From the IMG/VR virus record IMGVR_UViG_3300030109_005803, positions 1-63,530 of that record: a stretch of DNA of 63,530 nucleotides; one strand, 5' to 3'. Position numbers and translations under genes: made by a program. How positions within the stretch are numbered: position 1 is the first letter of the stretch; the number at the start of each line of letters is the position of its first letter. This document shows positions 39,928 to 63,530 of the stretch, piece by piece. The notes beneath the pieces were generated by a model, which worked only from the letters and a program-made list of their open reading frames with translations, was not told the DNA's origin and did not search any database. The DNA is from a virus.

Positions 39928-39945
39928 TTTATATCCTTAATATTA

Positions 39946-42973: not shown

Positions 42974-43649
42974 TTACGAAGCCCCCGTCTACAATTAAAT
43001 TTTGTCCTGTAAGATACGTGTTATACTCGCTGGCCAAAAATAAAACTACTTTTGATATTTCTTCTGGTGCTGCCATCCTCTTCATTGGAACTTGCTCACA
43101 CATCTCAGAAATACCCTTTGTACCAAGAATTCTTGTTGTCAATTCAGTCGCTGTAAACCCAGGCGACACACAGTTAACTAGGACATTATGAGCCGCCATT
43201 TCGACTGCAAGAGTCTTCGTCATGCCGACAAGCGCAAACTTAGAAGTTGTATAGCAAGACCTCTTTTCTTTCGTACAGTGTCCGAATATTGATGCGATGT
43301 TAATGATCCTACCATACCCTCTGTCCTTCATTGATTTTGAAACCGCCTTTGATATCATAAAAGGCGCCTTTGTATTGATGTGCATTATCTTATCGTAATC
43401 CTCTTCTAGAACATCCTCAACATAATTTATTTTGTTAATACCAGCATTATTTACACAAACATCAATCCTGAGGGTCTCCAAGAGCTTTACAAAATCATTC
43501 AGTTCTTTCCCGTTAGTGAGGTCGTAGGTTGAGCTTGGATAGGACACAACTTCGGCGCCCAGTGATTTAAAATCATCGGAAATGCACTTTCCGATTCCTC
43601 TCGTAGCGCCTGTGACTAACACTACTTTATTACTAAAATCAAGATTCAT
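42966..43649 (-). CDS. Short-chain dehydrogenase/reductase (FabG-like)
   Basis: This 227-residue classical SDR has TGATRGIGK (cofactor loop), NNAG near 88, a catalytic Ser in NIASIFG, YTTSK with Tyr and Lys, and the C-terminal LTGQNLIVDGGF. The family reduces keto groups or oxidises alcohols with NAD(P)H. Wedged between the cyclase (8-base overlap) and the cytidylyltransferase-like gene (11-base overlap), it most likely acts on the cyclase or sugar product rather than on fatty acids. The substrate is inferred from context. Confidence 0.82.
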   Translation of the reverse strand: MNLDFSNKVVLVTGATRGIGKCISDDFKSLGAEVVSYPSSTYDLTNGKELNDFVKLLETLRIDVCVNNAGINKINYVEDVLEEDYDKIMHINTKAPFMISKAVSKSMKDRGYGRIINIASIFGHCTKEKRSCYTTSKFALVGMTKTLAVEMAAHNVLVNCVSPGFTATELTTRILGTKGISEMCEQVPMKRMAAPEEISKVVLFLASEYNTYLTGQNLIVDGGFVNV

Positions 43650-45647: not shown

Positions 45648-45655
45648 TTACTAGC

Positions 45656-46603: not shown

Positions 46604-46604
46604 C

Positions 46605-47957
46605 TTAGGTCATGACCTCCATAAAGGTATCAACCACCTTCTTAATATATTCAATTTTCTCGTCGGTGTAACCTATGTAAGTCCCCAGGAAAACTGAGCT
46701 AGCGGTTGCTGTATGAGCATTTGGATATCTCTCTTCTAAATCAACGCCTTCCGGACGCAAATGAGCATATGCTGGATGATATAAAACGTTTCCGGTAAAA
46801 TACGATCTTGTTTGGATCTTATTGTATTCCATATAATCAACAAAATCTTGTTTCGTAAAACTATCGTTGTCTTTAACAAGCAGAAGGAATCCAAACCAAC
46901 ACGGGTCCGCTTTCTCTGTAGCCTTTGGTAGGTGAAAATGATCTTCATACTTTTCAAAAATTGAATAAATTTTATCAAAGTTCTCTCGTCTCGCGGACTC
47001 CATCTCTGGAAGCTTTTTGAGTTGTTCCAACCCCATTGCTGCCTGTAGATCAAGTGGCTTAAGGTTATATCCTATTTCATCAAAAACATATCTATGATCA
47101 TACGTCAGTGCCTTGTTGCCATCTAGCCAGTTTTTAAATCGATTCCCACACGCTGTTCCAGACGTCACGTCGCCGGGCTTTAGAGTGTTGCAGTAACAGG
47201 CGCGACCCCAGTCTCGGTAACTGGACAGGGCCATTTGAGTAGCTGCTGAATTTGTAGCCACGAAACCACCCTCACCCGTAGTCATATGATGTGCCGGGAA
47301 GAAAGAGCAACTCGCGAGATCTCCATAAGAGCCAAGCTTTTTGCCATCATATGTAGATCCTAGGGCATCACATGCATCCTCAAGAAAAATCAAATCATAT
47401 TGCTTAACTAAGGACATTAACCTATCCATGTCTGGAGGGTTACCCAAAACATGGGCAAAGATTATGCCTTTAATTTCCTTGTTCGTATCGTTCTTTAATA
47501 CTTGTTCTACTTCATCTAAATTTAGATTTAGACTTGGGATATCAACGTCAACAAACACTGGCTCAAACCCATTTTGGATTAGAGGATTAATAGTAGTTGG
47601 GAAACAGACAATTGGAGTTATAAACTTAGATCCAGCCTCTAGTCGATACTTTTTGGGCAGCTTGTTCTGGGAACGCAATACAGAGGTCATCAAAAGGTTG
47701 GCTGAGGATCCGGAGTTCGTTAAGATTCCTCGCTTTTTACCTAATAATTGTGGGAACTCTTTCTCAAATTGAGAGGCGTTCTGTCCGAAGATCAACCACT
47801 CACTGAGCAGGGACTTCACAGCAGCGTGATACTCTTTCTCATCAAAGTGTGGTCCAGAGTACTTAACCCAGTCTCCCTCTTCCCACTTTTCATTAAGCTT
47901 CTTTTCAGAAACATATTCAGTAATTAGCTGTAATATTTGCTCCATTTTGTCAGACAT
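46605..47957 (-). CDS. E1/RfbH-type NDP-4-keto-6-deoxyhexose 3-dehydrase
   Basis: This 450-residue DegT-fold enzyme lacks the PLP Lys. The motif reads SFFPAHHMTTGEGG, with His where aminotransferases have Lys, the signature of CDP-6-deoxy-4-ketoglucose 3-dehydrase (RfbH/E1). Cys in EDACDALG, and CYC plus TACGNRF after SYRDWGR, fit the [2Fe-2S] ligands of that family. E1 removes the C3 hydroxyl with electrons from a reductase (E3); no E3 gene is in the island. The length (450) is close to RfbH (about 437) and longer than the related ColD. This points to a 3,6-dideoxyhexose. Confidence 0.88.
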   Translation of the reverse strand: MSDKMEQILQLITEYVSEKKLNEKWEEGDWVKYSGPHFDEKEYHAAVKSLLSEWLIFGQNASQFEKEFPQLLGKKRGILTNSGSSANLLMTSVLRSQNKLPKKYRLEAGSKFITPIVCFPTTINPLIQNGFEPVFVDVDIPSLNLNLDEVEQVLKNDTNKEIKGIIFAHVLGNPPDMDRLMSLVKQYDLIFLEDACDALGSTYDGKKLGSYGDLASCSFFPAHHMTTGEGGFVATNSAATQMALSSYRDWGRACYCNTLKPGDVTSGTACGNRFKNWLDGNKALTYDHRYVFDEIGYNLKPLDLQAAMGLEQLKKLPEMESARRENFDKIYSIFEKYEDHFHLPKATEKADPCWFGFLLLVKDNDSFTKQDFVDYMEYNKIQTRSYFTGNVLYHPAYAHLRPEGVDLEERYPNAHTATASSVFLGTYIGYTDEKIEYIKKVVDTFMEVMT

Positions 47958-48778
47958 TCTTTTAATCCTTTTCGCAATCCTATTGTTTTAATATTTAGGC
48001 TGTCGATTCGAGCGCTACAACCACTATAGCCCAAACCATTTTCTTCTTCTATAATAACATCAAAGGAGCCATTAGTTAAATTCTTATACTCCTGAATGAT
48101 GTCGCTGATCTTGTACTTCTGGCTGTAACAGGCGTTTATGTCCTTTGGTATGTTACTACTATCATGATTGTTTATGATATGGCTTATCAAGCGCCCCACA
48201 TCTTTTGAATAAATAAAGTCCATTTCTTTATCTTGGTGGATTACGGGATTTTGCCCATTTAGCACCTTATTGTGGGTCGCTTTAATTAATCTTTGCTCTT
48301 CCTCATAAGAGCCGAAGCACCCAAATAATCTAATGTTAAAAATGTTTTTGTCAATGTCTAAAATTTTTTTTGTTATGGTATTTTTAGACATGCCGTAAAA
48401 GTCTTTCGGGCGCCTTTGATGTATCTCTTTTTCTTTAATCCGATATATCTGTTGACCCCTGTCAAATTCCGCGCCGGATCCAAAATTAAACATGATTTGA
48501 AATCTATCAGAGAAAAAAGACAAATTATCAAACATTGCAATATTATCATTGTAATCTTGTTCCGTGTCCTGTCTCCCTCTTTTCCCGCCCTTAACAGCAG
48601 TGTGAATTACGACATCAACCTGATTGTTGCTGAAGAAGTTCTCTACTTGTTTAAAGTTGGTTGGATCAAGAGTAGACCTGTTTGTTAATATTAGTTCTAC
48701 TTTTGACTCCAGGCCGGCGAAGTACTCTTTCAGTTCTTTTGCTAAAAATCCATTGGCACCGGTAATTAAATACTTCAT
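47924..48778 (-). CDS. NAD-dependent epimerase/dehydratase (SDR)
   Basis: This 284-residue protein has ITGANGFLAKELKEYF for cofactor binding and an extended-SDR shape with a Tyr/Lys pair (YGMSKNTITKK). Residues FNIRLFGCFGSYE and MDFIYSKDVGRLI resemble epimerases or reductases acting on nucleotide sugars. It overlaps the transketolase-half gene by 4 bases and the E1-type dehydrase by 34. A likely role is to reduce or epimerise the sugar after the other two enzymes act, the part played by the reductase in the yersiniose pathway. Confidence 0.75.
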   Translation of the reverse strand: MKYLITGANGFLAKELKEYFAGLESKVELILTNRSTLDPTNFKQVENFFSNNQVDVVIHTAVKGGKRGRQDTEQDYNDNIAMFDNLSFFSDRFQIMFNFGSGAEFDRGQQIYRIKEKEIHQRRPKDFYGMSKNTITKKILDIDKNIFNIRLFGCFGSYEEEQRLIKATHNKVLNGQNPVIHQDKEMDFIYSKDVGRLISHIINNHDSSNIPKDINACYSQKYKISDIIQEYKNLTNGSFDVIIEEENGLGYSGCSARIDSLNIKTIGLRKGLKECLTKWSKYYS

Positions 48779-49260
48779 CTCTTAAGATTCATATATATTG
48801 GAGTTTTCTTGTCAAATAGTGTCGTTGAGGTTGTACACCAGTCAACCAGCTGCTCAACATTGGGAGGTCGAACTAGTTTAATGTTGGAGAATGTTGCCAT
48901 AACCTTTTCGTCTTCCTCAGCCCAATGAGAAAAGCCTAGATACCCATAATCGCGGGATCTTCCTCCACCAATTAACTTAACAGGAAGCTTCTCATGGTCA
49001 ACGTAATTTCTAATAAACTCAAAAGGACGGTATAATAGAAAAGGTGTAATTGAATAAACAAAAGGTATCTTGCCATCCATCGCCATTCCTGAAGCCATAC
49101 CCATCATAAGCTGTTCGGAAGAGCCAACATTCCAAAAACGATCTGGGTAATCAATCCTGATCTTGTCCCACAACCCATAGCCCAGATCGCCCGTAAGAAC
49201 AACTATATCCTCATTGGCTGACATCTCTTGATGAAGAATCTTAGCAAACTCTTTTCTCAT
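48775..49260 (-). CDS. Transketolase C-terminal half (pyrimidine-binding subunit)
   Basis: This 161-residue protein is the pyrimidine (PP) domain of a transketolase-type enzyme: VVLTGDLGYGLWDKIR, WNVGSSEQLMMGMASGMAMD with the catalytic Glu, and YSITPFLLYRPFEFIRN. The PYR half must pair with the diphosphate-binding half encoded by the next upstream gene, which it overlaps in an ATGA. The third, C-terminal transketolase domain is missing, as in two-subunit enzymes that attach C2 units to keto-sugars in some actinobacterial branched-chain octose pathways. Confidence 0.82.
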   Translation of the reverse strand: MRKEFAKILHQEMSANEDIVVLTGDLGYGLWDKIRIDYPDRFWNVGSSEQLMMGMASGMAMDGKIPFVYSITPFLLYRPFEFIRNYVDHEKLPVKLIGGGRSRDYGYLGFSHWAEEDEKVMATFSNIKLVRPPNVEQLVDWCTTSTTLFDKKTPIYMNLKR

Positions 49261-49889
49261 CCCTGCAATTCCTCGATCGCAGCTTTATAATCCTGTTCAT
49301 CCATAATGTGGTAGTGCGCGTTTAGCCCTCGTAAGAAAGAAAATTGATTAACACTTGTATGGATAATTTCTATCTCTGGTAGAAATGCTTTGAGTCTCTT
49401 GGTTAGGTACCCCTTGTCGACTGCCTCATAGGCAGCGTATCCGTTCAAATTAGCGTATACCTTTATGTTGGTGACGTTGTGTACCTTTATGAACCTTAAA
49501 GCCTCCCAGATCGATCCTTCGGCGCTCTCGCCGTCACTTATTAAACAATGGACTGTTCTTGATGGATCAGCTAGCGCGCGACCTACTGCCACAGTGAGCC
49601 CCATCCCTAGACTACCAGTTGAGCAATGCAAATCATCTTTCTCATTTCTATGTGGGTGACCCCCGTGTTTATCAAAAAGTTTTTCGGCGTCATGACCACG
49701 ATATTTCTCTAAAACAACGTACAGAGCTAAGGCACAATGACCAGACGAAAGAATAAAAATATCGTCCTTCTCCATACCAGCATAGATATCTTCTATAATT
49801 CCTACGCTCGATAAATAACTACCAAGGTGCGACAATCTTCTGTTATATGCGATATCTAATATCCGTTTCTTCAGTGCTAGATCTTCCAT
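49257..49889 (-). CDS. Transketolase N-terminal half (thiamine diphosphate-binding subunit)
   Basis: This 210-residue protein corresponds to the thiamine-diphosphate domain of transketolase. It has FILSSGHCALALYVVL (SGH motif), GHPHRN, TGSLGMGLTVAVGRAL, and a cofactor motif SDGES ... ANLNGY in place of the usual GDG ... NN. Together with the 161-residue subunit it would form a complete two-chain enzyme that moves a two-carbon ketol. A conventional transketolase would be over 600 residues, so this is a compact relative. In this island its acceptor is probably an NDP-keto-deoxysugar, as the 3-dehydrase and an SDR are adjacent. Confidence 0.84.
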   Translation of the reverse strand: MEDLALKKRILDIAYNRRLSHLGSYLSSVGIIEDIYAGMEKDDIFILSSGHCALALYVVLEKYRGHDAEKLFDKHGGHPHRNEKDDLHCSTGSLGMGLTVAVGRALADPSRTVHCLISDGESAEGSIWEALRFIKVHNVTNIKVYANLNGYAAYEAVDKGYLTKRLKAFLPEIEIIHTSVNQFSFLRGLNAHYHIMDEQDYKAAIEELQG

Positions 49890-50629
49890 TGGTCACTCCA
49901 ATGATCTTGTATCATCTTATCATAATTGACACCCTCTTTTTGTACTTTCCAAGTTGCTTGCTCGGGGTGCCATCTGTAGTTAAATCCGAGCCATATGGGC
50001 GCAGGAAATATCATAATTCCGTTATCCGCCAAGCTACAGTATAAATCATAATCGGCAGCGCCGCCATAAACTTCCGGCTTAGTTTGCAATAGACCTTCCC
50101 TGTACAACGAAGTGTTATATATCACTGTTGGGGTATTCACAGGGCACCTCTGTAGACTTTGGTCTTTAAACTCTTTTAAAGATGCATACTTGTGTGTGAC
50201 ATAGCCCGTTACGTCCTGTTTATGGTTAACTCCTCTTATAGGACTTTGAAGCGCCAAGATCTGGTCTGGTCGGGTCTGAATGATCTTCATACATTTGTTT
50301 ACAAAGCTTTTCTCAAGAAAATCGTCGGCTCCCATAACCAAAACATACTCGCCAGTCATCAACTCAAACCCACGAGATCGGGCCTCATCCCAGCAATTAG
50401 GGTATATGTTTTTGGCGCTAGAAATCATAAAACTTGGAGACTCCTCCAGAGCAGCAAATTCTGTAGCTAGTCGATTTGCTATTTCTAGACTGTTATCAGT
50501 GCTTTCATTGTCAACAAAAATAACCTCTAGATTTTGATAGTCTTGGTTTAGTGCTGACCTAAGACACTCTTCAATCCACTTTTCTGCATTAAAGCAGGGA
50601 ATTATAATACTAAATTTAGGAATACTCAT
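49877..50629 (-). CDS. Family 2 glycosyltransferase (GT-A)
   Basis: This 250-residue protein begins with FSIIIPCFNAEKWIEECLRS and NLEVIFVDNESTDNS, the nucleotide-binding part of inverting GT2 enzymes. It has a metal-binding motif at MGADDFLEKS. Asp in VDNESTD and the ADD sequence are the expected nucleotide and manganese ligands. It is soluble, with no membrane helices. It overlaps the thiamine-subunit gene by 13 bases. The sugar transferred is unknown, though the C2-branched or 3,6-dideoxy sugar made next door is a natural candidate. Confidence 0.87.
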   Translation of the reverse strand: MSIPKFSIIIPCFNAEKWIEECLRSALNQDYQNLEVIFVDNESTDNSLEIANRLATEFAALEESPSFMISSAKNIYPNCWDEARSRGFELMTGEYVLVMGADDFLEKSFVNKCMKIIQTRPDQILALQSPIRGVNHKQDVTGYVTHKYASLKEFKDQSLQRCPVNTPTVIYNTSLYREGLLQTKPEVYGGAADYDLYCSLADNGIMIFPAPIWLGFNYRWHPEQATWKVQKEGVNYDKMIQDHWSDQWKI

Positions 50630-50631
50630 GT

Positions 50632-51657
50632 TTATAGCTCTGTCATCTTCTGTACACGATGGATATATGTATGGTTCTTAACTACTTCATTACGATAATA
50701 CTCTTTTGTTTCATGAGCAAGTGCATCATTTGATAGATATTTATCTATTATCATCATCATCTCATCTTCTGATCCATACATGGGCAAATCCGGGAATATA
50801 TTTTTTATTGCGGTTATCATATCACTTACTAGAATCCCTGTCAACCCTAGAGCCTTGAAAGTTCTCTCATTAGTATCTAATCCTAAAATTCTTTGATAGT
50901 TGTCGTGGATATTTAACGCAATATTGCTATTATACAGAACTCTATTTTCTTGCTCGTGTGTTAGGTTTTTATTAATGAAAATACCACAATCTAATTTGCT
51001 CTTCATTAGTGGCTTAAAATGACTGCGCATAATTTGAGCTTTTTCATTAAACCCATTATTAGCCCAGCCTCCCACATAACAGACGTCATGGTTGTTCCTG
51101 TCGGATGGATCTTTTTTATAAGATATTGAATCAAAAGCTAAAGGTATATAATTGATCTTTTTCCATTCTTTATAATAAAGATCTTTAATCTCTGGTGATT
51201 GCTCTACCCACGTCCAGAGGTGAACGTTATCTAACTCATTTAAATAGTTAATCGCTTTGAGTCCAGTTCCTCCTAGAAAATCACTTGGTGAGTAGCCGCA
51301 TATAAAATTCGGATGCGAGCCCCAAGGAGATGGAAATTTAGTTGGCTGGACAAATACATAACACTTTTCACTCTTCTTGATTATCTCCATCGCGGAAGAA
51401 TATACAGACATAAAATGCCTCTGTGTTTGTGTAGTATTATTTTTATTCACAGCCATCTGATAACAAGAAGACAGCGTGTAGTCGTCTACCATAATACTAT
51501 AGCTACATCCTGATAGTGACTCTGATGCGCTAATCCAGTCACCTAAGCCCTGCGTTGGGATTGACTCATAGCCTAGATTTCCCCAGGCTGCAGAATACCC
51601 TCTATATATCGTTTGACCGGCGCCGGCTGGTAAATTACCCGGTAGTAAAACCTTCAT
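50632..51657 (-). CDS. Glycosyltransferase-like protein (CgeB/GT-B type)
   Basis: This 341-residue protein ends with the GT-B C-terminal pattern of CgeB-like transferases (LGLDTNERTFKALGLTGILV, then SDMITAIKNIFPDL), where the Glu pair binds the donor nucleotide. The N-terminus is glycine-rich (LLPGNLPAGAGQTIYRGYSA). It belongs to the run of transferases at 50-56 kb and overlaps the next one by 4 bases. Donor and acceptor cannot be read from the sequence. Confidence 0.72.
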   Translation of the reverse strand: MKVLLPGNLPAGAGQTIYRGYSAAWGNLGYESIPTQGLGDWISASESLSGCSYSIMVDDYTLSSCYQMAVNKNNTTQTQRHFMSVYSSAMEIIKKSEKCYVFVQPTKFPSPWGSHPNFICGYSPSDFLGGTGLKAINYLNELDNVHLWTWVEQSPEIKDLYYKEWKKINYIPLAFDSISYKKDPSDRNNHDVCYVGGWANNGFNEKAQIMRSHFKPLMKSKLDCGIFINKNLTHEQENRVLYNSNIALNIHDNYQRILGLDTNERTFKALGLTGILVSDMITAIKNIFPDLPMYGSEDEMMMIIDKYLSNDALAHETKEYYRNEVVKNHTYIHRVQKMTEL

Positions 51658-52577
51658 ATGCCATTAATATCCTTTAATAGATTGGACAACCGCATGTGTG
51701 ACTGATGGTCTTTGAGATATCTCTGGTATCCGGCCGCACTTAATTTTTCTACCAAAGTAGGAGTTTTCAGCAAATATTTTAGCTTAGAAATCATTTCATT
51801 TCGTTGAGAGAAGGTTATGATTTCTTTATCGATTTTAAAGTAATTTTCCAACCCTTTGGTGTTCTCTGTGACCAACAGTGCGCGGGAGGCTGGTACTTCA
51901 AACATGCGAGCCTTCATTTGTGTTTTTCTTTCGTGATCATTAGAGTTCTTGCTGAAGTTTATGCCGATGCGACTTTGGGAAGTTTTTGATAACATATCTG
52001 TATATTCCAAGCCATGGGTTACCTCTATATTCAAGCCAGCGTCTCTAATCATGTTGATATAGCTTGTCCTATCTTGGTTAAGATGTCCACAAAATATAAT
52101 GTCTGTTTGCTTGGGTAGCTTCTCTTGTGGATATAGGTTTTTATTTGCGTGCCACAAGCCTAGAAATATGTTTTCGTAGTTTGCTTCATTCCTATATCTT
52201 TCCAGATAAGATGGTTCGGGAGTGGAACAAGCAGTAAAAAGGTGGCATGCGCGCGAGGAAAAGTTATCAAATCGCCAAGTGTCATCACAAAACCAGTTGA
52301 ATGTCTTGACAAGTCCACTTTTTGTATACTTCTCTATCTGCTCCCATGGTTCGTGCGGGGTCATGGCAGGGTTGTTTGTCATACAGCAAAAAATTAAATC
52401 AGGCTTAAAAGTATCTACTATCTTGGAATAATCTTTATCTTTTGGATTTACCGTATCATAAAGGTAAACGTCGTGGCCCAGATCTTTTAAGGGGAGGAAC
52501 ACATTCCAATATCCGTAATCTATCCACGTAGCAGTTCCGTTTGTTAAAGTTTTATTTAAGGTTAATAATATTTTCAT
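51654..52577 (-). CDS. CgeB/DUF3880-like glycosyltransferase
   Basis: This 307-residue GT-B protein has LPLKDLGHDVYLYDTVNPKD and DLIFCCMTNNP in the N-domain, and IIFCGHLNQDRTSYINMI in the linker. RMFEVPASRALLVTENTKGL forms the donor site of the C-domain. This matches the DUF3880 plus Glyco_trans_1_2 arrangement named after the spore protein CgeB. Both this and the previous protein keep the E-x-x-A pattern at the donor site. A 4-base overlap with each neighbour indicates one transcript. Confidence 0.75.
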   Translation of the reverse strand: MKILLTLNKTLTNGTATWIDYGYWNVFLPLKDLGHDVYLYDTVNPKDKDYSKIVDTFKPDLIFCCMTNNPAMTPHEPWEQIEKYTKSGLVKTFNWFCDDTWRFDNFSSRACHLFTACSTPEPSYLERYRNEANYENIFLGLWHANKNLYPQEKLPKQTDIIFCGHLNQDRTSYINMIRDAGLNIEVTHGLEYTDMLSKTSQSRIGINFSKNSNDHERKTQMKARMFEVPASRALLVTENTKGLENYFKIDKEIITFSQRNEMISKLKYLLKTPTLVEKLSAAGYQRYLKDHQSHMRLSNLLKDINGI

Positions 52578-53425
52578 CTAAATACATCTAATATTTTCTT
52601 TGGAATTTCACTTCGTTTGTTTCTCATGACATTTATCAGCTCTGAACCTTTTAGTGAAAACCACTCTTCTTTTGACGCGCCTAAGTTTTTATTGGTAACC
52701 ACGCTCATACCCATCATTCGCGCCTCGACGGCTATTCTTGATAATGTCTCAGGAGTTTTTGGCAAGAAAATTAAAAATTTATTAGCACCGAGTCTTTCCA
52801 GAAAATCTCTGTATTGCAAAGTGGGTATAAGTTCAAATTCAAGATTTTTAATTTTACAATAGTTGACTGCATCAGAAGTATTTTTGTGACTTATGTTAGA
52901 GTTCATTATAGAATAAACACTCTTCTTCTCTTTTTTGGCAATTTCCTCTAAAAAGTCAAGCACGTCTGACTCCCACAAATTTCCCCCAACATTTGTTATG
53001 TTGTTTAGTTCTAGATTCTTCTCAACTATTTCTTCATGAAACTTACTCTGGCAGATGACTGCTAGGGCTGATTTATAAAAATCGAAGTTAATGATCTCGG
53101 ACGGCGGTGCGTGATAATTGTCATACAGTGCCGGATTTCTACTTCTTAGGTATTTGTGGTCGTGTTCGTATATAATATACTTTTTATTTTGCAAAAGTGT
53201 CTTAACTTGTTCCGATAAGTTAATAAAATTTGAGATGATAAACCAAGAATTTGAGTTTTTTGTAATATACTCTTCATTAACAAGATGGCAATTCTTTTTT
53301 TCAACCTCGTAGCCTAAACCACTAAGAATATTAATTAATTCTTCGTTGTTTAGTTCACCGCCTCCGGGGATTTCATTAGAAAAATAGTCAGCAATAAATA
53401 CTATGCTACTCATGCTCCTCAACAT
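52574..53425 (-). CDS. Glycosyltransferase-like protein (GT-B, group 1 type)
   Basis: This 283-residue protein starts with VFIADYFSNEIPGGGELNNE, the typical start of GT4-type enzymes with a G-G-x-E loop. It ends with PKTPETLSRIAVEARMMGMS, a C-terminal E-x-x-x-x-E donor site. It is shorter than most GT4 enzymes. The start is chosen at an ATG with AAGGA upstream; a second in-frame ATG 12 bases later is possible. It is likely part of the same glycan assembly as its neighbours. Confidence 0.68.
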   Translation of the reverse strand: MLRSMSSIVFIADYFSNEIPGGGELNNEELINILSGLGYEVEKKNCHLVNEEYITKNSNSWFIISNFINLSEQVKTLLQNKKYIIYEHDHKYLRSRNPALYDNYHAPPSEIINFDFYKSALAVICQSKFHEEIVEKNLELNNITNVGGNLWESDVLDFLEEIAKKEKKSVYSIMNSNISHKNTSDAVNYCKIKNLEFELIPTLQYRDFLERLGANKFLIFLPKTPETLSRIAVEARMMGMSVVTNKNLGASKEEWFSLKGSELINVMRNKRSEIPKKILDVFR

Positions 53426-54674
53426 CTAGTCCTTCTAACCATCCCTCAACATCAAAGTCTTCCTCTCCCTCCAGACTTATACCCAGGGCGTTTAGGAAAT
53501 TTTCATAAAGTTGCTCTTCAGCAAAGTTTTTATGAATATGATTTTTCAATGTTTCGGCCTCTTTTTTCCAGTGAGTTTCTTTCTCTAAGCATTCTTTCAA
53601 AGCAGACTTATAATGTTTCTCTTTGGCATATGCCCACTTGGAATCAGCTTGGATTATTCCATCCCAAACTGCATGCGGCTGCACATTCTCTATATCATAG
53701 TCTACCTTGATTACTCTTGGCACTTGTTTACCCTTCTTGTTAGGCTTACAAATAAAATCCATCTGTCCCGACCAAGTTGTTGTAATCAGAGGCAAGCCAT
53801 GATAAGCAGCCTCAAACAAAGGAAGACCATAACCTTCACCATGTCCAATATTAATCATTGCTCTCATTGTGGGATGCTCGTAGAGCCACGCTAGGTTACC
53901 AGGAGACATTTCACCATGAATTAGATACACTGTACACTTACGGTCTTCGTAAGGCGCCAGGAGCGTCTGCAGGCGATTTTGTGTAAATTCCCTGTCCGTG
54001 ATAGAGTCCGACGCTGTATTAGCCTTAACTACTAAACCAACTTCTTCATCGTCAGCAAAGGTCTCCACAAACCACTTGATCGTATTATCCAGATTCTTCC
54101 TTGGTCCCCACTGTGCGATCGCAAGGAAATTTTTATCGGTTCTAAAATCTATATTTACTTCTTCAGGATCAAACATTCTAACCGGATAATTAACCGTTTC
54201 TACTGGTACGTTCAATCCCCATCCCTTAATTTCATTTCCTTGCTGGTCATTGACATCATACTTTGTCTGTTCAAACACTTTTTTTGAGTGATTAGAAACA
54301 ACAATTATCTTATTAACTGTTTCATTAGATTTGGATATCCATTGAGGTGAAACTTTAGTAGTCTCAATCCCAGCTGTGTATCCGATATTTATTGGCGCTA
54401 TCTTTTCAAACTCATTTGGTACCGTGACTTGTAACGAAACATCAAATTGCCCTCCTTGTTGGGCGTACATCTGAGTTTTCATAATAAGATTGTGGATTAG
54501 GTCTGACTCTTCATCAACAGCGGCTATTTGCCCAGTTCTTCCCCAGGGGATGTTGATGATATAAATATCAAACAAGTCTGGTCGGGACTGTAACGACCTT
54601 AAAGCAAAACGAGCTTGTTCTCCATACCCAGAGCGTGATAGAACTGGACCTTTGATTAAAATCTTTCTTAACAT
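53406..54674 (-). CDS. Group 1 glycosyltransferase (GT4-like)
   Basis: This 422-residue GT-B enzyme has the N-terminal loop KGPVLSRSGYGEQARFALRS and a C-terminal GHGEGYGLPLFEAAYHGLPL with the E-x-x-x-x-x-E donor signature. ARWGP-like NFLAIAQWGPRKNLDN lies in the linker. The acidic C-terminus (LEGEEDFDVEGWLEGLDVEE) is unusual. It overlaps the next transferase by 20 bases and shares one base with the one before. Retaining transfer of a nucleotide-activated sugar is expected; identity unknown. Confidence 0.82.
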   Translation of the reverse strand: MLRKILIKGPVLSRSGYGEQARFALRSLQSRPDLFDIYIINIPWGRTGQIAAVDEESDLIHNLIMKTQMYAQQGGQFDVSLQVTVPNEFEKIAPINIGYTAGIETTKVSPQWISKSNETVNKIIVVSNHSKKVFEQTKYDVNDQQGNEIKGWGLNVPVETVNYPVRMFDPEEVNIDFRTDKNFLAIAQWGPRKNLDNTIKWFVETFADDEEVGLVVKANTASDSITDREFTQNRLQTLLAPYEDRKCTVYLIHGEMSPGNLAWLYEHPTMRAMINIGHGEGYGLPLFEAAYHGLPLITTTWSGQMDFICKPNKKGKQVPRVIKVDYDIENVQPHAVWDGIIQADSKWAYAKEKHYKSALKECLEKETHWKKEAETLKNHIHKNFAEEQLYENFLNALGISLEGEEDFDVEGWLEGLDVEEHE

Positions 54675-55924
54675 TAGTATACCTTTACTTCGTATGAATC
54701 GTAGCCCTTACGGTCTTCCCAAGAGCCTTTTTCTTCGTTTATTGAGGTGAACAAATCATCCCATCTCTGAATGAATTTATCGAACCCAAATCGATCCTCC
54801 GACCATTGGCGGCCGGCGAGACCCAATTCTCTTCTAGACTCCGGAGTCATTTCATAAAGTTCCACCAGAGCATTGATAAAATCGTCCTTCTTCAGACGAT
54901 CCTCATAAATGTATGGAACCTGCTGAGATCCAATGATGGCTTTAGAGATCGGGTTCAGTCCGATGCCAAAAAATTTCTCCCCATCAGTTACCTGATCCTG
55001 CAAGCCGCCGGTCATGTTAACCAATATGGGTGTGCCACAAGAAAGCGATTCCAAGGTTGAGAGACCAAACCCTTCGGCATCAGAAATGCAAACAGTAATA
55101 TCTGCCATATTATACATCCCTGCAAGGTCACTGGCACTGACTTTCTCTCTGGAGAACAAGACTTCACCATTTGTCAGCCCTAGCTCATGGATTATCGCCT
55201 CTAGATCTTGTCCATTATTGTCCTTGATATCAGTATGCATAATAAGACAAGCCTTATCGTGCCCTACCTTGTCTAAAAATTCTTTAAACCACCATATCAA
55301 GGTGCCAGATTGCTTGCGGCGCGCGTTACGACTATTCCAAAAACAGACAAATTTATCATCCAAATTTTTAGACACTCTCCAAGTCTTAACCTCTTCCACC
55401 GAGTGTGGTTTAAAAACATCAGGATTTACAGCATGTGGAATATAAGAAGAATCTACTTCTGGTGTCACTGTCTCAACTATATCATGCGTAACTTTAGATA
55501 TACATGCAACATGATCATTTGAAAGATAGAATTTGCGATTAAATTTCGGGTATGGATAATTGTCCCAAACATGATAATAGACCATTGGCACGTGTGCCCT
55601 AACTTCGTTCTCAATTGCCCATAACCATTCATAGAATCTTGGATCTGTCATAAACCAAAGTATATCCGGCTTTTGTTGTCGAATCATCGCACGGACCATA
55701 TCTGGGTTTCCGTAACCGTCGACGGGCCAAATAACCCAATCATTACCCCAAGTCTCAGTTTTTTGAGGATCATAACTAGCGTGCTTGATCGCGCCACCAA
55801 ATGAAACAAACTGGTACTTGCCAGTCTTAAGCATCCCTTCAATAATATACTTTGTTTGAGTTCCGACACCACTCGGAGATAGCGGATGATCGCTAATGGT
55901 GAAAATCTTAATCTTGTCTGACAT
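54674..55924 (-). CDS. Group 1 glycosyltransferase (GT4-like)
   Basis: This 416-residue GT-B protein has SDHPLSPSGVGTQTKYIIEG at the N-terminus, FVCFWNSRNARRKQSGTLIW in the linker and ISDAEGFGLSTLESLSCGTP at the donor site, with both expected Glu. The motif TGGLQDQVTDG follows. It is the first island gene transcribed and is followed at once by the other transferases, so transferases precede the sugar-building genes in the transcript. It may be the priming or first-addition enzyme, which is inference. Confidence 0.84.
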   Translation of the reverse strand: MSDKIKIFTISDHPLSPSGVGTQTKYIIEGMLKTGKYQFVSFGGAIKHASYDPQKTETWGNDWVIWPVDGYGNPDMVRAMIRQQKPDILWFMTDPRFYEWLWAIENEVRAHVPMVYYHVWDNYPYPKFNRKFYLSNDHVACISKVTHDIVETVTPEVDSSYIPHAVNPDVFKPHSVEEVKTWRVSKNLDDKFVCFWNSRNARRKQSGTLIWWFKEFLDKVGHDKACLIMHTDIKDNNGQDLEAIIHELGLTNGEVLFSREKVSASDLAGMYNMADITVCISDAEGFGLSTLESLSCGTPILVNMTGGLQDQVTDGEKFFGIGLNPISKAIIGSQQVPYIYEDRLKKDDFINALVELYEMTPESRRELGLAGRQWSEDRFGFDKFIQRWDDLFTSINEEKGSWEDRKGYDSYEVKVY

Positions 55925-57567: not shown

Positions 57568-58887
57568 TCACAAATTTTGTGCGGCGAAAGTAGCAACTCT
57601 TGAACGTTCACCCTTTAGGAGGGTTACGTGAGCAGCCAACTCAAAGTCTTTAAATTTCTCAACAGCATGAGTCAGGCCGTTCGTCGTAGCATCTATGTAA
57701 ACGTTATCAATCTGTTCCACATCGCCAGTCAACACAATCTTGGTTCCTTCACCAACTCTTGTTATTATAGTCTTTAATTCGTGAGTTGTCAAGTTTTGTG
57801 CCTCATCAATTATAATAAAGGCTTTTCCGATAGAGCGGCCGCGGATATAAGTGATTGCTTCAATCTCAATCGTGCCCTTCTCCAAGTACATATCCAAAGT
57901 AACCTTGTCATTTCCCATTAGGGTCTGAAGGTTGTCTTGAATTGGCATCAACCAAGGAGACATCTTTTCCTCCATCGTGCCCGGTAAGAAACCTATGTCC
58001 TTTCCTAGCGGCTGTACGGGTCTAGAAACGATTAGACGAGTGTAGACGGATGATCTGTCGTCTAGGGTCTGTTCAAGAGCTGCAGCGATCGCACAGAGCG
58101 TCTTACCGCTACCTGCTTTACCAATCGCAGTGATAACCTCAATGTCTGGATCCATAAGAGCGTCAATCAAGAAAGATTGCTCTTTGTTTCTCGGCTTGAT
58201 CCCCCACACTCCTCTTTTTTCTTTACGCAATTGTCTAACCGGCGTATGTTCATTGAGGAACCTTCCCAATGCAGTCTTCTTTTCATTTGCATTGGAAATC
58301 AGCATCACATATTCATTTGTCTTGAGATTTCTGCCTTCAAGATAAACGTCTTTTTTATCATAGAATTGATCTATTATCCCATCGTCTACTAGAACCTCTG
58401 AGAAACCAGTGTATATACTGTCACTGTCATCGACAATCTGTTGATTTTGGAAATCCTCACAGGGCAGCCCAATAGCATCCGCAATAACCCGCATGTTAAT
58501 GTCGCGGGAAACAAGGATAACTTTTCTTTCGGATTCCCTCGCGACAGTTCTGGCCGTTGCGATAATAAGGTGATCAGGGATCTTAATGTCTAGATCTTGC
58601 GGTAGGTCATCTCTGTCTATATCTGCCGCAGATATTGATTTAACAATCCCCAGACCCTGGCGAATGCGTACACCTTTTTTGAGGCTGCCTTTGGAGCGAA
58701 GTTCGTCCCAGATACGAATAATCTTTCGCGCCTGCACCCCTACAAGGTCTTGACGCTTCTTATGCTTATCAATTTCCTCAAAAACTTTTAAAGGAACGTA
58801 TACATCATTGTTTTTAAAAGCGTATATTGCGTCTGCGTTCGTTAGATAAACACTGGTATCTAACACATAAATCTTCTTACGGCTCAT
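57568..58887 (-). CDS. phoH: PIN-domain / PhoH-type ATPase
   Basis: This 439-residue protein has an N-terminal PIN nuclease domain with acidic residues at VLDTSVYLT (D9), in the EEIDK helix (E37-E38 region), and DHLIIATA and VSRDIN around 105-130. A C-terminal PhoH-like ATPase has Walker A AIGKAGSGKTLCAIA near 255 and Walker B AFIIIDEAQN. The PhoH2 arrangement (PIN plus RNA helicase/ATPase) suggests an RNA-unwinding and cleaving enzyme. phoH is one of the commonest auxiliary genes of marine phages; its link to phosphate starvation is only partly supported. A hairpin just before the gene covers the ribosome site. Confidence 0.9.
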   Translation of the reverse strand: MSRKKIYVLDTSVYLTNADAIYAFKNNDVYVPLKVFEEIDKHKKRQDLVGVQARKIIRIWDELRSKGSLKKGVRIRQGLGIVKSISAADIDRDDLPQDLDIKIPDHLIIATARTVARESERKVILVSRDINMRVIADAIGLPCEDFQNQQIVDDSDSIYTGFSEVLVDDGIIDQFYDKKDVYLEGRNLKTNEYVMLISNANEKKTALGRFLNEHTPVRQLRKEKRGVWGIKPRNKEQSFLIDALMDPDIEVITAIGKAGSGKTLCAIAAALEQTLDDRSSVYTRLIVSRPVQPLGKDIGFLPGTMEEKMSPWLMPIQDNLQTLMGNDKVTLDMYLEKGTIEIEAITYIRGRSIGKAFIIIDEAQNLTTHELKTIITRVGEGTKIVLTGDVEQIDNVYIDATTNGLTHAVEKFKDFELAAHVTLLKGERSRVATFAAQNL

Positions 58888-58893
58888 TACAAC

Positions 58894-58913
58894 CCTATTC
58901 TAAACTAAATAGG
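58894..58913 (-). promoter_or_regulatory. Hairpin over the phoH ribosome-binding site
   Basis: CCTATT and AATAGG form a 6-bp stem with an 8-base loop in the phoH leader. The second arm leads straight into the AGGG before the ATG at 58887. In the RNA this could hide the ribosome site and tune translation. The stem is short, so the effect may be small. Confidence 0.3.
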
Positions 58914-58921
58914 CAGTACTT

Positions 58922-59440
58922 TTAATAGTTTCCTACTTTTGCTATATCACCTGATGTTAGAACCTCTACTTTTGACGGTTTTAAGTCACCGTCGGACAAA
59001 GGAGGTGGTTCCATTCCAGCATCTGATACAAGCGTTGAAGAACTTTGGATTTTGCCGCCGCCTACACTCCATAGCATTTCGATGCCCAATTCTTCGCACA
59101 CATCCATCTCTGGAGTATTATCAGTTTTGCGATCTCCACCATTAGCAAAATAATCTGGCTTAATCCTCCGGAGCGCTTCACATACGGTACCGTCCCTATC
59201 ATCAACATTAGTTGTTTCTCCGGTTGCAGTAAAGCCTTCCAGAATCTCACATCGCTCATCAAATGGCATAAAGATATAGCCCTTCTTTCGCATTAGCCAG
59301 TCATCTGAATTGACAATGACAACTACGTGACCATATTTAGATGCTTCCTGAATCATGCGAAGGTGTCCAATATGTACAGGATCAAACCCTCCCGAAACAC
59401 ACACGGTTGTATAGGGAGTCGATCTAGGTTCACTACTCAT
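58922..59440 (-). CDS. Nucleotidyltransferase of the HldE/RfaE C-domain type
   Basis: About 172 residues from the ATG at 59440, chosen because it is 9 bases after GAGG; an ATG 6 bases earlier is possible, and a far upstream start would overlap the preceding gene. It has the Rossmann nucleotidyltransferase motif SGGFDPVHIGHL, NSDDWLMRKKG and the C-terminal SSSTLV. This type transfers AMP to heptose 1-phosphate (HldE C-domain) or acts on glycerol or ethanolamine phosphates. With the GmhA-like isomerase in the island, ADP-heptose-like chemistry is a reasonable suggestion, but kinase and phosphatase are missing. Confidence 0.8.
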   Translation of the reverse strand: MSSEPRSTPYTTVCVSGGFDPVHIGHLRMIQEASKYGHVVVIVNSDDWLMRKKGYIFMPFDERCEILEGFTATGETTNVDDRDGTVCEALRRIKPDYFANGGDRKTDNTPEMDVCEELGIEMLWSVGGGKIQSSSTLVSDAGMEPPPLSDGDLKPSKVEVLTSGDIAKVGNY

Positions 59441-59672
59441 CTTCATCGCCCTCTGTACTGGAGAGAAAGTTTCTCTCAATAGCACCAATCGCTTCTTCCG
59501 CGTCTGCCAAATTACCAATTGCAGCGGCAATCTCGCCAACAACGCTTGGATGCTCAGCGACCCCCATGGGGTTATTCAAATACAGTTCAATAACAGCAAT
59601 CGCCTCTTGCCTATCTGCTTCAAAGCGGGCCAGGGTTGCTCGTACTAACTGTTCAGCCATCATATTACTCAT
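59433..59672 (-). CDS. Small helical protein of unknown function
   Basis: This 79-residue acidic protein has a strong ribosome site (AGGAG) and an ATG (MSNMMAEQLVRATLARFEAD). It overlaps the nucleotidyltransferase gene by eight bases. The composition is Ala/Glu-rich with a likely two-helix fold. It lies between the tRNA genes and the nucleotidyltransferase. No motif recognised. Confidence 0.62.
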   Translation of the reverse strand: MSNMMAEQLVRATLARFEADRQEAIAVIELYLNNPMGVAEHPSVVGEIAAAIGNLADAEEAIGAIERNFLSSTEGDEDE

Positions 59673-59692: not shown

Positions 59693-59770
59693 TGGTCGGC
59701 GTGGTAGGATTCGAACCTACGACCCCCTGCTCCCAAAGCAGGTGCGCTAACCAGACTGCGCTACACGCCG
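59693..59770 (-). tRNA. tRNA-Pro (anticodon UGG)
   Basis: This is a complete cloverleaf of 75 bases plus an encoded CCA. The acceptor arms CGGCGTG / CACGCCG pair over 7 bp, the anticodon stem CCTGC/GCAGG is perfect and the loop TTTGGGA gives UGG. The T arm is GTAGG-TTCGAAT-CCTAC. It is the last of three tandem tRNA genes transcribed. A UGG tRNA reads CCA and other proline codons. Confidence 0.95.
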
Positions 59771-59773
59771 AAA

Positions 59774-59849
59774 TGGTGGAGATGACAGGAGTCGAACCTG
59801 CGACCTGATGCGTGCAAGGCAACTGCTCTCCCAACTGAGCTACATCCCC
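59774..59849 (-). tRNA. tRNA-Ala (anticodon UGC)
   Basis: The length is 76 bases with an encoded CCA. The acceptor GGGGATG / CATCTCC includes the G3-U70 wobble pair that identifies alanine tRNAs. The anticodon loop CTTGCAC gives UGC; the stem has one T-T mismatch. Only three bases separate it from tRNA-Pro, so the cluster is processed from one transcript. Confidence 0.93.
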
Positions 59850-59866
59850 AAAAATATTCAACTTTA

Positions 59867-59932
<66 letters not shown>

Positions 59933-59942
<10 letters not shown>

Positions 59943-60732: not shown

Positions 60733-60760
60733 AGAATACGCTATATTCTATATAAGTCAA
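60733..60760 (-). promoter_or_regulatory. Sigma-70-type promoter
   Basis: TTGACT (60755-60760) and TATTCT (60733-60738) have a 16-base spacer on the minus strand. It lies over the stop codon of the lipoprotein gene and upstream of two small genes. The -10 box matches consensus at four of six positions. Confidence 0.45.
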
Positions 60761-61314
60761 GAACCTTTTTTAAGATAAACACCACTATTAGAATTATATC
60801 TGTTAGACATCGTCGGCAATCCACCATATTCTGGATCATCAATAACTAAAAACATATCCAATGGAGGATTGGTCTCGGGCCGCCAGCTGAACACCAACAA
60901 TCTCTCCTCTTCATACCAGTACCAATCAAACTCATTATTTTTAACAAGGTCAAAAACATTGACGCATCCATTTTGATTATTTGTAATCGCTGGAAGCAGG
61001 CTATCATACAAAGCATGCCCTGAATATAGTTCAACGTTTTCGCCACAGACTCTTACTCTTCCTTCTTCTCCATTGGGAAACTCAACAGATAAAGAAAAGT
61101 AGTCGGCTACCACTATTTCAGAAGATATGTTTCTTGCAAAACAGTAGACTACTATACCAAGTGTATTTTGACTGTCGGGATACCCAGTGCCCCAAAGGCA
61201 AGACATGTCGAACATATAATCGCCATAGTCTGTGTCAGCTACTGGCTCTGGGTTTTCTGAGACAACTGCGCAAGAGAATAAAAAGAATATTAAAGTAAAG
61301 AATACTCTATACAT
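60757..61314 (-). CDS. Putative phage-encoded lipoprotein
   Basis: The 185-residue product has a short signal peptide (MYRVFFTLIFFLFSCAVVSE) with a lipobox ending at Cys15 (LFSC), so the mature protein would be lipid-anchored outside the inner membrane. The rest has six or so Cys in loops (MSCLWGTG, VVYCFARN, RVCGENVEL, NGCVNVF), compatible with disulfides. The gene has its own near-consensus promoter. Phage lipoproteins often exclude superinfecting phages, a guess here. No domain recognised. Confidence 0.65.
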   Translation of the reverse strand: MYRVFFTLIFFLFSCAVVSENPEPVADTDYGDYMFDMSCLWGTGYPDSQNTLGIVVYCFARNISSEIVVADYFSLSVEFPNGEEGRVRVCGENVELYSGHALYDSLLPAITNNQNGCVNVFDLVKNNEFDWYWYEEERLLVFSWRPETNPPLDMFLVIDDPEYGGLPTMSNRYNSNSGVYLKKGS

Positions 61315-61377: not shown

Positions 61378-61690
61378 TGGTGGAGGTGGTGGGAATCGAA
61401 CCCACGTCCAAAGTATTTCCAACTTCAAGTCATTCACAGGCATATCTTGTTTCTCTAAACAAGCAAAGTATCAAATTCGATTCAATCCGCTCAAAAAGGA
61501 AAAAGCGTTCTTTTTTGTTTGTTCTTCTTGGACACCCGGCGAAGAACAACCGGGGATCAAGCAGCTAGTGCTAAACCGTAATCTGCGTCGTTTGCAGTTA
61601 AGTGGTTCTAACTAATGTTTAATGTGATTAAGTTAGCTGTCACAACCTGCACTATCCATCTTCCCAACCCTGTCGAAACCTGTCACCCCC
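61378..61690 (-). ncRNA. ssrA: tmRNA (ssrA), one-piece, phage-encoded
   Basis: The 313-base RNA has the tRNA-like ends of tmRNA. The acceptor GGGGGTG / CACCTCC pairs over 7 bp with a G3-U70 wobble (alanine identity). The 5' side continues ACAGGTTTCGACAGGG, the T arm is GTGGG-TTCGATT-CCCAC, and a CCA is encoded. The internal reading frame gives the tag ANDADYGLALAA (see 61557-61595). tmRNA with SmpB rescues stalled ribosomes and tags the partial protein for proteolysis; after charging, the tag starts with an extra Ala. It is a normal one-piece molecule, not permuted. No SmpB gene is in the window. It may be read through from the gene upstream, as no promoter of its own is obvious. Confidence 0.93.
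61557..61595 (-). other. tmRNA resume frame encoding the tag ANDADYGLALAA
   Basis: The frame begins at the resume codon GCA (61593-61595) and ends in TGA at 61557-61559. It encodes ANDADYGLALAA. The last residues LAA are the expected signal for ClpXP-type proteases, and the AND start is typical of bacterial tags. The tag differs from the Escherichia coli tag ANDENYALAA in the middle and is two residues longer. Confidence 0.88.
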
Positions 61691-61725: not shown

Positions 61726-62064
61726 TTATTCTTTGTCCATGCCAAATTTTCTCTTTATATCTACCCACGAACTTGGATTAATACCCAATATTCTTCTTAT
61801 CTCTGCATTAGTGTCAGCAACACTAATAACTGCATTATACAGTGCTTCCTTAGAAATATCAACTATTTTCGACCAAAGATTAAAGCCATACAGCTTGCCA
61901 TTGGTAAGCTTCATGGAACACTCTAACTTTAATCCTATAACTTCTTCAAGAGTTAAAGCAGATAACATTATTTCAAACGCTTCAGAAGACTTACCTTCAT
62001 TACGTAATGTATTTGATAGTGATTTGTTTCTACTAAAACCCTTTTCTATATTAGGGTTTGTCAT
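61726..62064 (-). CDS. 112-residue conserved phage protein of unknown function
   Basis: The protein is basic at both ends with a conserved-looking core: LTLEEVIGLKLECSMKLTNG, LYGFNLWSKIVDISKEALYN and AEIRRILGINPSSWVDIKRK. The second half suggests a helix-turn-helix or a small DNA-binding fold. It is separated from the tmRNA by 35 bases, so both may be in one transcript. Similar proteins are, in my recollection, found in T4-like marine phages; function unknown. Confidence 0.68.
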   Translation of the reverse strand: MTNPNIEKGFSRNKSLSNTLRNEGKSSEAFEIMLSALTLEEVIGLKLECSMKLTNGKLYGFNLWSKIVDISKEALYNAVISVADTNAEIRRILGINPSSWVDIKRKFGMDKE

Positions 62065-62067
62065 ATT

Positions 62068-62907
62068 CTACTGTTCTAAAAGTTTGTCTATTAAACTCTC
62101 TAAATTAATATCCATTCCTTCTTCCAATTCAAAATCAGGAATGTCTGTTTCTGGATCCCCGTCTTCTTCTGGAGAGGCAGTGGGCTCATCTGGCTGTGCA
62201 TCTTGTGCTGCTTGTGGTTCCTCTGGGGTTGTCGACAATTCTCCTTCAAATTTGTCAAAGTATAGCGCAAGGTTCTTCAGAAGGTACTCTTCAAACATTG
62301 CAATGTCGTTGGGGTTATCGAGGTTATCGTATGCCACAAGAATATTCTTCTCAATGTCCTGGAAGTCATCATATGCTCTGTTGCGGCCGGTCTTGTCGAC
62401 ACCCTCTAAGCCAAACTCTTCTCTTTCATCGGGCTCTTCTGCTGGCTCTTCTACTTTATCTTCAACGTCGATAAATGCTGGGTCATCCTCGGGCTTGTCG
62501 GAAATGGTGATATCAACATCTTCTTCCACAGCCTCAATCTCTTCGTCTTCGCCGGCTTCCTTACGGGATTCCTCAGGTGCAAGAGACATGTCGACAGCAT
62601 TAAGTATGTGGGCTCTATATGAATCTCTCTGTTGCTTATCGGTGGTAAGGGATTTATATCCTGTTTCAAGAACGGATAATAAGTTAGAGTTCTTAAGAAG
62701 ATCTTCTAAAGTATTAATGCCAGTACTTTCATGTTTCGCCACGGCCGCAACATTACTCTTCTCGGATAGTAAAGTTCGTATAGCAGAACGAAGCTCATTT
62801 TCTTCGTTTAATCTTTTTGTTTCTCTTCTACCTAAAACGTGGCGAATGGCTTTGCGCACATTCTCCCGGAGCATTAGCTCTTCTGCAAATTCTTTACGAT
62901 CAATCAT
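62068..62907 (-). CDS. Acidic helical phage protein (possible prohead core-like)
   Basis: The 279-residue protein has a basic N-terminal helix pair (RENVRKAIRHVLGRRETKRL, ELRSAIRTLL) followed by very acidic segments (EDEEIEAVEEDVDITI, EEPDEREEFGLEGVDK). It ends in an acidic low-complexity region and a short amphipathic helix (NLESLIDKLLEQ). Acidic, helical proteins like this occur as scaffold or core components, so a head-assembly role is possible, but no hallmark motif is visible. It is 3 bases from the next gene. Confidence 0.6.
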   Translation of the reverse strand: MIDRKEFAEELMLRENVRKAIRHVLGRRETKRLNEENELRSAIRTLLSEKSNVAAVAKHESTGINTLEDLLKNSNLLSVLETGYKSLTTDKQQRDSYRAHILNAVDMSLAPEESRKEAGEDEEIEAVEEDVDITISDKPEDDPAFIDVEDKVEEPAEEPDEREEFGLEGVDKTGRNRAYDDFQDIEKNILVAYDNLDNPNDIAMFEEYLLKNLALYFDKFEGELSTTPEEPQAAQDAQPDEPTASPEEDGDPETDIPDFELEEGMDINLESLIDKLLEQ

Positions 62908-62909
62908 TT

Positions 62910-63530
62910 TTAGCCCACCGATATTCCTAGTAAATAGTTCATTACTTCAGTAACTATCTCTTCATCTTCTTTAATGAAGTTCTTGGGATGCCTCTTCTTT
63001 TTCTTCTCGGAACCCACAATACTTGGGGCTCTGCCAGAAAATCCTGCAACAGCGCCTGCGCCCATAGCGGACATTTCCTCAAGCTTTCCTTGAAGTATAT
63101 CATATATTTCTTGATTATAAAATCCCATAATGGCTTCAAAGTCCTCTATTGAGGCTCCCTTAAGAGCATTTCTTAAAGTTGTCCCTGACATCTCGCCAAA
63201 CCCTGGAACGTCAATTTCAACGTGCGGAGCAACTGCAATGTATCCATGTTTGTCAAGTCCCACAAGCTCTTCTCCTGGCCTGTAAGTTTTGTAGTAGGCA
63301 GGAATGCCTTTCTTGGTAAGACCGTCTAGATTGGCAAACCTGGGACTGTCACGCATATCCTTGCCTCCGACCGCGAATATAATAGCCGTCGATGCTGGAT
63401 CGAAGTCCTGAGTAAGCTCCACAGCCTGATACGGATTTCTGCTCATTACGATTTTGTCGGCAGGAACGCCATGCGCGACCATGATTTTTTTCTTTTCTTC
63501 AAAATCCAGCGGAGATTTCGGACCCATTTT
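62910..63530 (-). CDS. Nucleotidyltransferase-fold protein, 5' end outside window
   Basis: The visible 206 residues are the C-terminal part. Codons continue to the window edge without a start that would fit the family, so the N-terminal HxGH domain is probably outside. Visible are AIIFAVGGKDMRDSPRFANL, IAVAPHVEIDVPGFGEMSGT and the motif MSGTTLRNAL, equivalent to the S-x-T-x-L/I-R loop that binds ATP or CTP in this superfamily. A basic KKKKRHPKNF follows. Marine T4-like phages carry related putative cytidylyltransferases of unknown substrate. Confidence 0.72.
   Translation of the reverse strand, partial: KMGPKSPLDFEEKKKIMVAHGVPADKIVMSRNPYQAVELTQDFDPASTAIIFAVGGKDMRDSPRFANLDGLTKKGIPAYYKTYRPGEELVGLDKHGYIAVAPHVEIDVPGFGEMSGTTLRNALKGASIEDFEAIMGFYNQEIYDILQGKLEEMSAMGAGAVAGFSGRAPSIVGSEKKKKRHPKNFIKEDEEIVTEVMNYLLGISVG

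Follow-up and report, generated by a model that had tools for sequence, protein, structure and literature searches.

Complete and tag-less tmRNA genes share one slot in a clade of large myoviruses

In an uncultured clade of large myoviruses, a single gene slot holds either a complete tmRNA gene (ssrA; 12 contigs, the window included) or a tRNA-like domain of 82-83 nt that we call a mini (11 contigs). The window is the whole stretch of DNA that was analysed, 63,530 nt out of a virus record of 64,886 bases, and the phage it comes from is a member of this clade. With at least 92 distinct minis known, their charging signal intact, and with minis alternating with a real tmRNA at one locus, what had been a curiosity becomes a class. 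The reading we prefer, at a probability of about 0.55, is that these phage RNAs are alanylated, use SmpB and take over or block host trans-translation. We hold at roughly even odds the wider proposition that phages carry widespread alanylatable, tRNA-sized, tag-less tmRNAs that antagonize (or rewire) host rescue, and that their interchange with a functional tmRNA at one myovirus locus amounts to a switch between sabotage and takeover.

The phage and its complete tmRNA

The first-pass annotation of this DNA, made from its sequence alone, had proposed a phage-encoded, complete one-piece tmRNA with a novel-looking tag. The gene is confirmed as such by an ARAGORN call and by the covariance-model search that had been suggested as a check, in which it matched Rfam model RF00023 from end to end (model positions 1-374; 119.9 bits against a gathering score of 47; E 2.8e-46). 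The gene, its parts and its neighbours are as follows.

57568..59542, minus strand: phoH (57568-58887) and a cytidylyltransferase-like gene (58922-59542), which close the conserved block on its downstream side
59693..59942, minus strand: tRNA-Thr(tgt), tRNA-Ala(tgc) and tRNA-Pro(tgg)
60757..61314, minus strand: 185-aa gene after ssrA, with a lipoprotein-like start as judged by eye
61378..61690, minus strand: full one-piece phage tmRNA gene (ssrA)
61378..61409, minus strand: 3' part of the tRNA-like domain, with GGAC, the T arm, the acceptor 3' strand with U70 and the encoded ACCA
61446..61463, minus strand: hairpin in the messenger domain's 3' half, CUUGUUU/AAACAAG (pair counts, 10 relatives)
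61520..61554, minus strand: pseudoknot PK2, CCCGG/CCGGG interleaved with UGUUCUUC/GAAGAACA (pair counts, 10 relatives)
61557..61595, minus strand: tag frame encoding ANDADYGLALAA and then a stop, with GCA as resume codon (as DNA; ARAGORN coding part 96-134 of the gene)
61608..61644, minus strand: pseudoknot PK1, UGUGA/UCACA interleaved with CUAACU/AGUUAG (pair counts, 10 relatives)
61666..61690, minus strand: 5' part of the tRNA-like domain, with the acceptor 5' strand with G3 and the D-loop-like GGNTTCGAC
61726..62064, minus strand: 112-aa gene directly upstream of ssrA, conserved in the clade, with no PHROG or Pfam match
62068..62907, minus strand: 279-aa gene, used as bait for finding relatives
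62910..63527, minus strand: 205-aa gene with conserved synteny

The tRNA-like domain has a 7-bp acceptor (GGGGGUG/CACCUCC) that includes G3-U70, a T arm and an encoded ACCA. The tag frame has a resume codon, a stop and a hydrophobic Ala-Ala end (ANDADYGLALAA*), and pseudoknots lie around it. The tmRNA structure was drawn by hand on the window sequence itself and then counted over ten aligned relatives, so that the control with slid partners is biased towards the drawing; standard pairs fill 97.4% of the 546 cells, compared with 92.1% in shuffles and 42-53% with slid partners. Changes on both sides were seen in 16 of 55 pairs over the ten relatives, against 5.4 in shuffles. PK1 and PK2 are H-type and have paired changes, whereas PK3 was drawn as one 4-pair helix without them, and the drawn structure has no PK4. 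The predicted pseudoknots are thus supported by covariation across the ten relatives, and the failure of the pseudoknot region that had been named as grounds for rejecting the tmRNA did not occur. A promoter-like site, by consensus match only, lies upstream of ssrA at 61862-61834 on the minus strand.

In its whole-model match, G3-U70, CCA, PK1/PK2, alanine resume codon and -LAA end, the window gene resembles bacterial one-piece tmRNA (RF00023), from which it differs in being phage-borne, in its length of 313 nt and in a tag without an exact match in genome_contigs. Since tmRNA genes normally belong to bacteria, a misassembled contig with host DNA in it had been considered as another way in which the reading could fail. 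The gene order shared with 11 other full-form contigs and the 0 exact matches of the tag in genome_contigs contradict this, and we regard the chance of a misassembly as negligible. A blastn search for named close relatives of the window ssrA gave only matches of T-arm length (30 records, none over 80%). The earlier remark that phage tmRNAs are rare is roughly right, as 402 of 18,146 phage genomes are counted with one in PMC9004378. Those already described include mycobacteriophages Bxz1 and Wildcat and Bacillus phage G (PMC4131195), as well as the two-piece tmRNA of Methylophilales phage Melnitz (PMC9004378). Like the window phage, these phages have their own ssrA, but they belong to other clades, and the slot in the window clade has a second, tag-less allele.

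Degenerate-pattern searches found the exact tag ANDADYGLALAA in 5 other viral contigs (L003-L007) and nowhere in genome_contigs. Syntenic relatives have the tags ANDANYGLALAA (L008), ANEADYGLALAA (L012, L013), ANDADYDLALAA (L087, L088) and ANDSNYTSYALAA (L084). All of these tags keep an AN start and an LAA end and so, by comparison with known tags, are likely to be working proteolysis tags. A literature search for printed tags did not meet ANDADYGLALAA, ANDANYGLALAA, ANEADYGLALAA or ANDADYDLALAA. The window tag is therefore unusual, as had been thought, but the clue to the host lineage expected of it was not obtained because no bacterium matched, and the host of the window phage was not found.

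PHROG and Pfam matches in the window (baseplate wedge, PhoH, exonuclease) are consistent with a myovirus. Named phages have only distant proteins in common with it: PhoH is below 40% identical among the matches listed, and the baseplate gp6-like protein is at best 33.6% identical to that of Flavobacterium phage immuto and 32.0% to that of Microcystis phage Mel-JY01. A distant search with the 6-kb region gave mostly tRNA gene matches among the ten matches listed. Elsewhere in the window, a 2833-aa open reading frame lies amid tail and baseplate genes (16025-24526), and a block of surface-sugar genes (37476-55924) encodes GDP-mannose dehydratase, epimerases, an aminotransferase and glycosyltransferases. 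This block includes a cytidylyltransferase fused to a cupin (43639-44775) as well as a match to family-29 sialyltransferases (28.2 bits, 44772-45647). At 48775-49889, two adjacent open reading frames match the pyrimidine-binding and thiamine-diphosphate-binding parts of transketolase, as in a split enzyme.

One slot, two forms

The window and its relatives share the gene order p205-p279-p112-[ssrA]-next gene-tRNAs-nucleotidyltransferase-phoH. Relatives were collected with the 279-aa neighbour gene as bait, used singly and as an alignment and with the RNA itself left out of view, which gave 20 loci. Eighteen of these cover the slot, and none is empty: 10 hold a full tmRNA (L003, L008-L013, L084, L087, L088) and 8 hold only a mini of 82-83 nt (L014, L078-L081, L083, L085, L086). 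L015 and L082 stop short of the slot. The totals of 12 full and 11 mini contigs include contigs found through the RNA itself; one flank was compared for L046, which ends just past its mini, and in some slot contigs one or another of the six compared genes went unmatched.

A tree was built from the two upstream proteins, with 24 rows of which 12 are full, 10 are mini and 2 are of unknown state. It has 6 changes between full and mini (5-6 in bootstrap trees), and its starred branches force at least 2. A single clade for the full rows was rejected (p 6e-120), a test that is weakened by the long branch of L006, and a single clade for the mini rows was rejected as well (p 0.0024). The minis of L036 and L049 nest (90/81) among full rows, beside the subclade of the window. 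Identity of the 3' tRNA-like part is 0.89 between full forms, 0.96 between minis and 0.76 between a full form and a mini. Because this part is more alike within forms than between them and the tree has repeated changes, full and mini are, as judged from these comparisons, two allele lineages swapped at one place and not repeated fresh deletions. That minis arose when the resident full gene simply suffered a deletion is not favoured, as the T stems of the two forms are distinct. The alternation of full and tag-less forms among close relatives argues for control of host trans-translation and not for simple extra rescue. It is also the main point beyond the first-pass annotation, of which the complete phage tmRNA stood and the host clue did not.

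Structure and predicted action of the minis

Minis were collected with a strict pattern, which gave 53 distinct sequences, and with a relaxed pattern in which acceptor and T stem were free. Both patterns fix the encoded CCA, TTCGAC and GGAC, so that minis without an encoded CCA or with other D-loops are missed. All accepted minis have a tmRNA-type tRNA-like domain in standard order without a messenger domain, with a median size of 81 nt, and pairing predicts that the clade mini is just this domain closed by a short hairpin. In the 53 strict minis, the unconstrained T-stem pairs 1-4 are paired in 212/212 cells and show as many as four pair types, acceptor pair 5 is paired in every sequence, and the first six H2 pairs are paired in 288 of 318 cells, compared with 111-136 when slid. 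Among the matches listed, G3-U70 is present in all 39 distinct minis whose acceptor was unconstrained, while acceptor pairs 5 and 6 vary in the same minis (four and five types). Also among the matches listed, one T-stem pair is broken in 1 of 92 distinct minis, GG precedes TTCGAC in 90/92 although it was not imposed, and the spacer between TTCGAC and GGAC measures 25-32 nt in 88/92. A recurrent inner motif like AARRCC...GG, a consensus made by eye, lies in the spacer. The mini at L014:7202-7284 scores 54.6 bits over 83 nt with RF00023; its single-sequence folding is not significant (z -0.65), and the structural support is comparative.

A scan for longer spacers (49-79 nt) gave 14 stretches, of which 6 have the full 7-pair acceptor (L153:1741-1851, L155:7502-7603, L158:903-1000, L160:9534-9646, L161:10698-10809, L163:2413-2516). 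These mid-size forms have a complete tRNA-like domain with 60-75 nt between TTCGAC and GGAC and make up a second, rarer size class, in which the insert is apparently a larger structured cap. The other 8 were rejected because the acceptor fails, the contig leaves no room for it or they look like minis with a chance upstream TTCGAC. The longest mini of the strict set, at L054:1903-1992, measures 90 nt with a 38-nt spacer and lies near tRNA genes. Two other identities were considered and rejected. A canonical tRNA-Ala with anticodon arm and D stem does not fit, as ARAGORN called no tRNA at the window-clade minis and cmscan assigned them to RF00023; nor does a permuted (two-piece) tmRNA, as all accepted minis among the matches listed have the 5' acceptor strand ahead of the 3' strand.

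Mobile elements are able to insert into ssrA and take fragments of it with them (PMC9004378), so a mini might be a decaying tmRNA gene, an attachment-site scar or an assembly deletion. This is very improbable given the complete pairing with compensatory changes, the peaked spacer size and the separate allele lineage of the minis, and we rejected minis as pseudogenes or att sites on the pairing, the compensatory changes and the lineage. Minis are moreover solitary or 1-5 nt from phage tRNA genes, and DS6A is listed as integrating at tRNA-Lys (PMC10865867).

From the genes and their exchange, we infer that both RNAs are expressed, charged and used with SmpB, and in which direction they act. The phage would express the window tmRNA in its host, where host AlaRS would charge it with alanine and host SmpB would bind it. 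It would then enter ribosomes stalled on cut messages and swap in its own template, adding a phage-specific tag with the usual Leu-Ala-Ala end. The mini would likewise be alanylated and delivered by SmpB to stalled ribosomes, and because it has no template, it would block host trans-translation as a competitive or dead-end form. The common need behind both alleles may be to take SmpB-dependent rescue from the host RNA during infection. Two published observations concern the parts of this scheme: in E. coli, the DS6A form is described as an inhibitor of endogenous tmRNA (PMC11915505), and in phage Wildcat, tmRNA is given as the most highly expressed lytic gene (PMC7474061).

The G3-U70 pair is an alanine identity determinant, and it bears on whether charging matters. 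If the mini were only an SmpB sponge, charging would be irrelevant, in keeping with the report that a TLD-like (DS6A-like) molecule strongly inhibits tmRNA in E. coli whether chargeable or not, perhaps by titrating SmpB (PMC4131195). Yet the at least 92 distinct minis keep G3-U70 invariant (39 of them unconstrained there), the 7-bp acceptor intact and CCA encoded. A charged mini is favoured over titration alone because the charging pair would drift under titration and does not, and we consider a pure sponge unlikely. A tag-less rescue RNA is somewhat more credible, although still clearly less likely than an alanylated mini that enters stalled ribosomes together with host SmpB and stops there. 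Such a rescue RNA would enter stalled ribosomes and add one alanine, another factor would complete release, and both alleles would keep ribosomes moving. Rescue of that sort has been proposed for the mitochondrial tmRNA, which has no tag frame and is nevertheless conserved along with SmpB (PMC11915505). The unbroken G3-U70 of the unconstrained minis, needless for a plain decoy, and the slot shared with a normal rescue RNA would suit this idea, whereas the mini has neither a template nor a stop codon to end translation and the DS6A-like molecule inhibits tmRNA (PMC4131195, PMC11915505). Being tRNA-sized and anticodon-less, and placed inside long tRNA arrays in some phages, the mini could also be an alanyl tRNA mimic for another use, such as a decoy of AlaRS, EF-Tu or a host RNase. 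This is improbable, since the tmRNA-type D-loop features are kept (the GG noted above, 90/92 among the matches listed) and the mini replaces a real tmRNA in one slot.

If the mini is an antagonist that trades places with a functional phage tmRNA at one locus, trans-translation would be a battleground where phages alternate between sabotage and takeover. Minis offer a direct route to asking whether ribosome rescue is something that phages disable or something that they seize, and they let one ask how an alanylated, template-less tmRNA acts on a stalled ribosome. If inhibitory, they would be natural inhibitors in the form of small RNAs, acting on a pathway that serves as an antibiotic target.

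The nearest precedent is the TLD-only tmRNA of Mycobacterium phage DS6A, the only phage so named in the available text of PMC4131195 and PMC11915505. Compared by description, minis are likewise little beyond a tRNA-like domain, but DS6A is one phage case in print against at least 92 distinct minis, and minis differ from it in the invariant G3-U70, the fixed-size hairpin cap and the allelic exchange with a full tmRNA. Literature searches of titles and abstract openings found no report of a phage TLD-only class besides DS6A. Mitochondrial and Mallomonadaceae plastid tmRNAs also have no tag frame, but they are organellar, and the mitochondrial genes are usually permuted (PMC11915505), whereas minis are viral and in standard order. 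The 2025 tmRNA database has 9 'standard, no CDS' genes among 97,179 (PMC11915505). What appears to be new is the size of the class, the invariance of the charging pair and the exchange of minis with a full tmRNA as alleles.

Distribution of the minis

The strict pattern matched 61 viral stretches, whose 53 distinct sequences form 24 clusters at 80% identity, and the relaxed pattern matched at least 120. Together the two scans gave at least 121 places, of which at least 113 were accepted and at least 8 rejected, with at least 92 distinct minis on at least 113 viral contigs. In genome_contigs, the strict pattern matched once, on a phage-like contig from Prochlorococcus single cell AG-409-P03. 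At 130,604 bases this contig is equal in length to viral contig L047, with which it is identical over the 8000 bases compared. For L047, PHROG matches were found for 2 of 8 proteins tested, and a terminase match in the same record, at E 2.8e-5, falls short of Pfam's cut-off. The relaxed pattern matched 1 of 292 genomes of the phylum of this cell, again AG-409-P03; the positive control in that phylum was poor, a normal 3' end with encoded CCA being matched in only 15/98 genomes. The virus-specificity of minis is thus judged from the strict pattern together with this weak control. Five minis searched singly matched no named phage over 80% of the mini.

Rfam was run on 12 further loci. Seven of the 9 accepted minis scored over the tmRNA cut-off, with L105 and L110 under it, and 2 of the 3 rejected loci were permuted tmRNAs (L092, L099). 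In all 61 strict mini records, the mini was the sole RF00023 match over the cut-off (51-81 bits), and no second tmRNA was seen in these records, many of which are fragments. A search for SmpB in 48 records (12 full-form records including that of the window, and 36 mini), many of them again fragments, gave no match; its control found SmpB in 10 of 14 named genomes.

The permuted (two-piece) tmRNA genes in viral contigs lie at L092:13-276, on a contig of 295,848 bases, and at L099:5920-6274. Some minis are placed in arrays at 1-5 nt from a phage tRNA gene, and many have no tRNA in the fetched locus. L026, L041 and L016 carry an identical mini sequence 3 nt from tRNA-Leu in arrays, and their fetched loci have as many as 28 tRNA genes.
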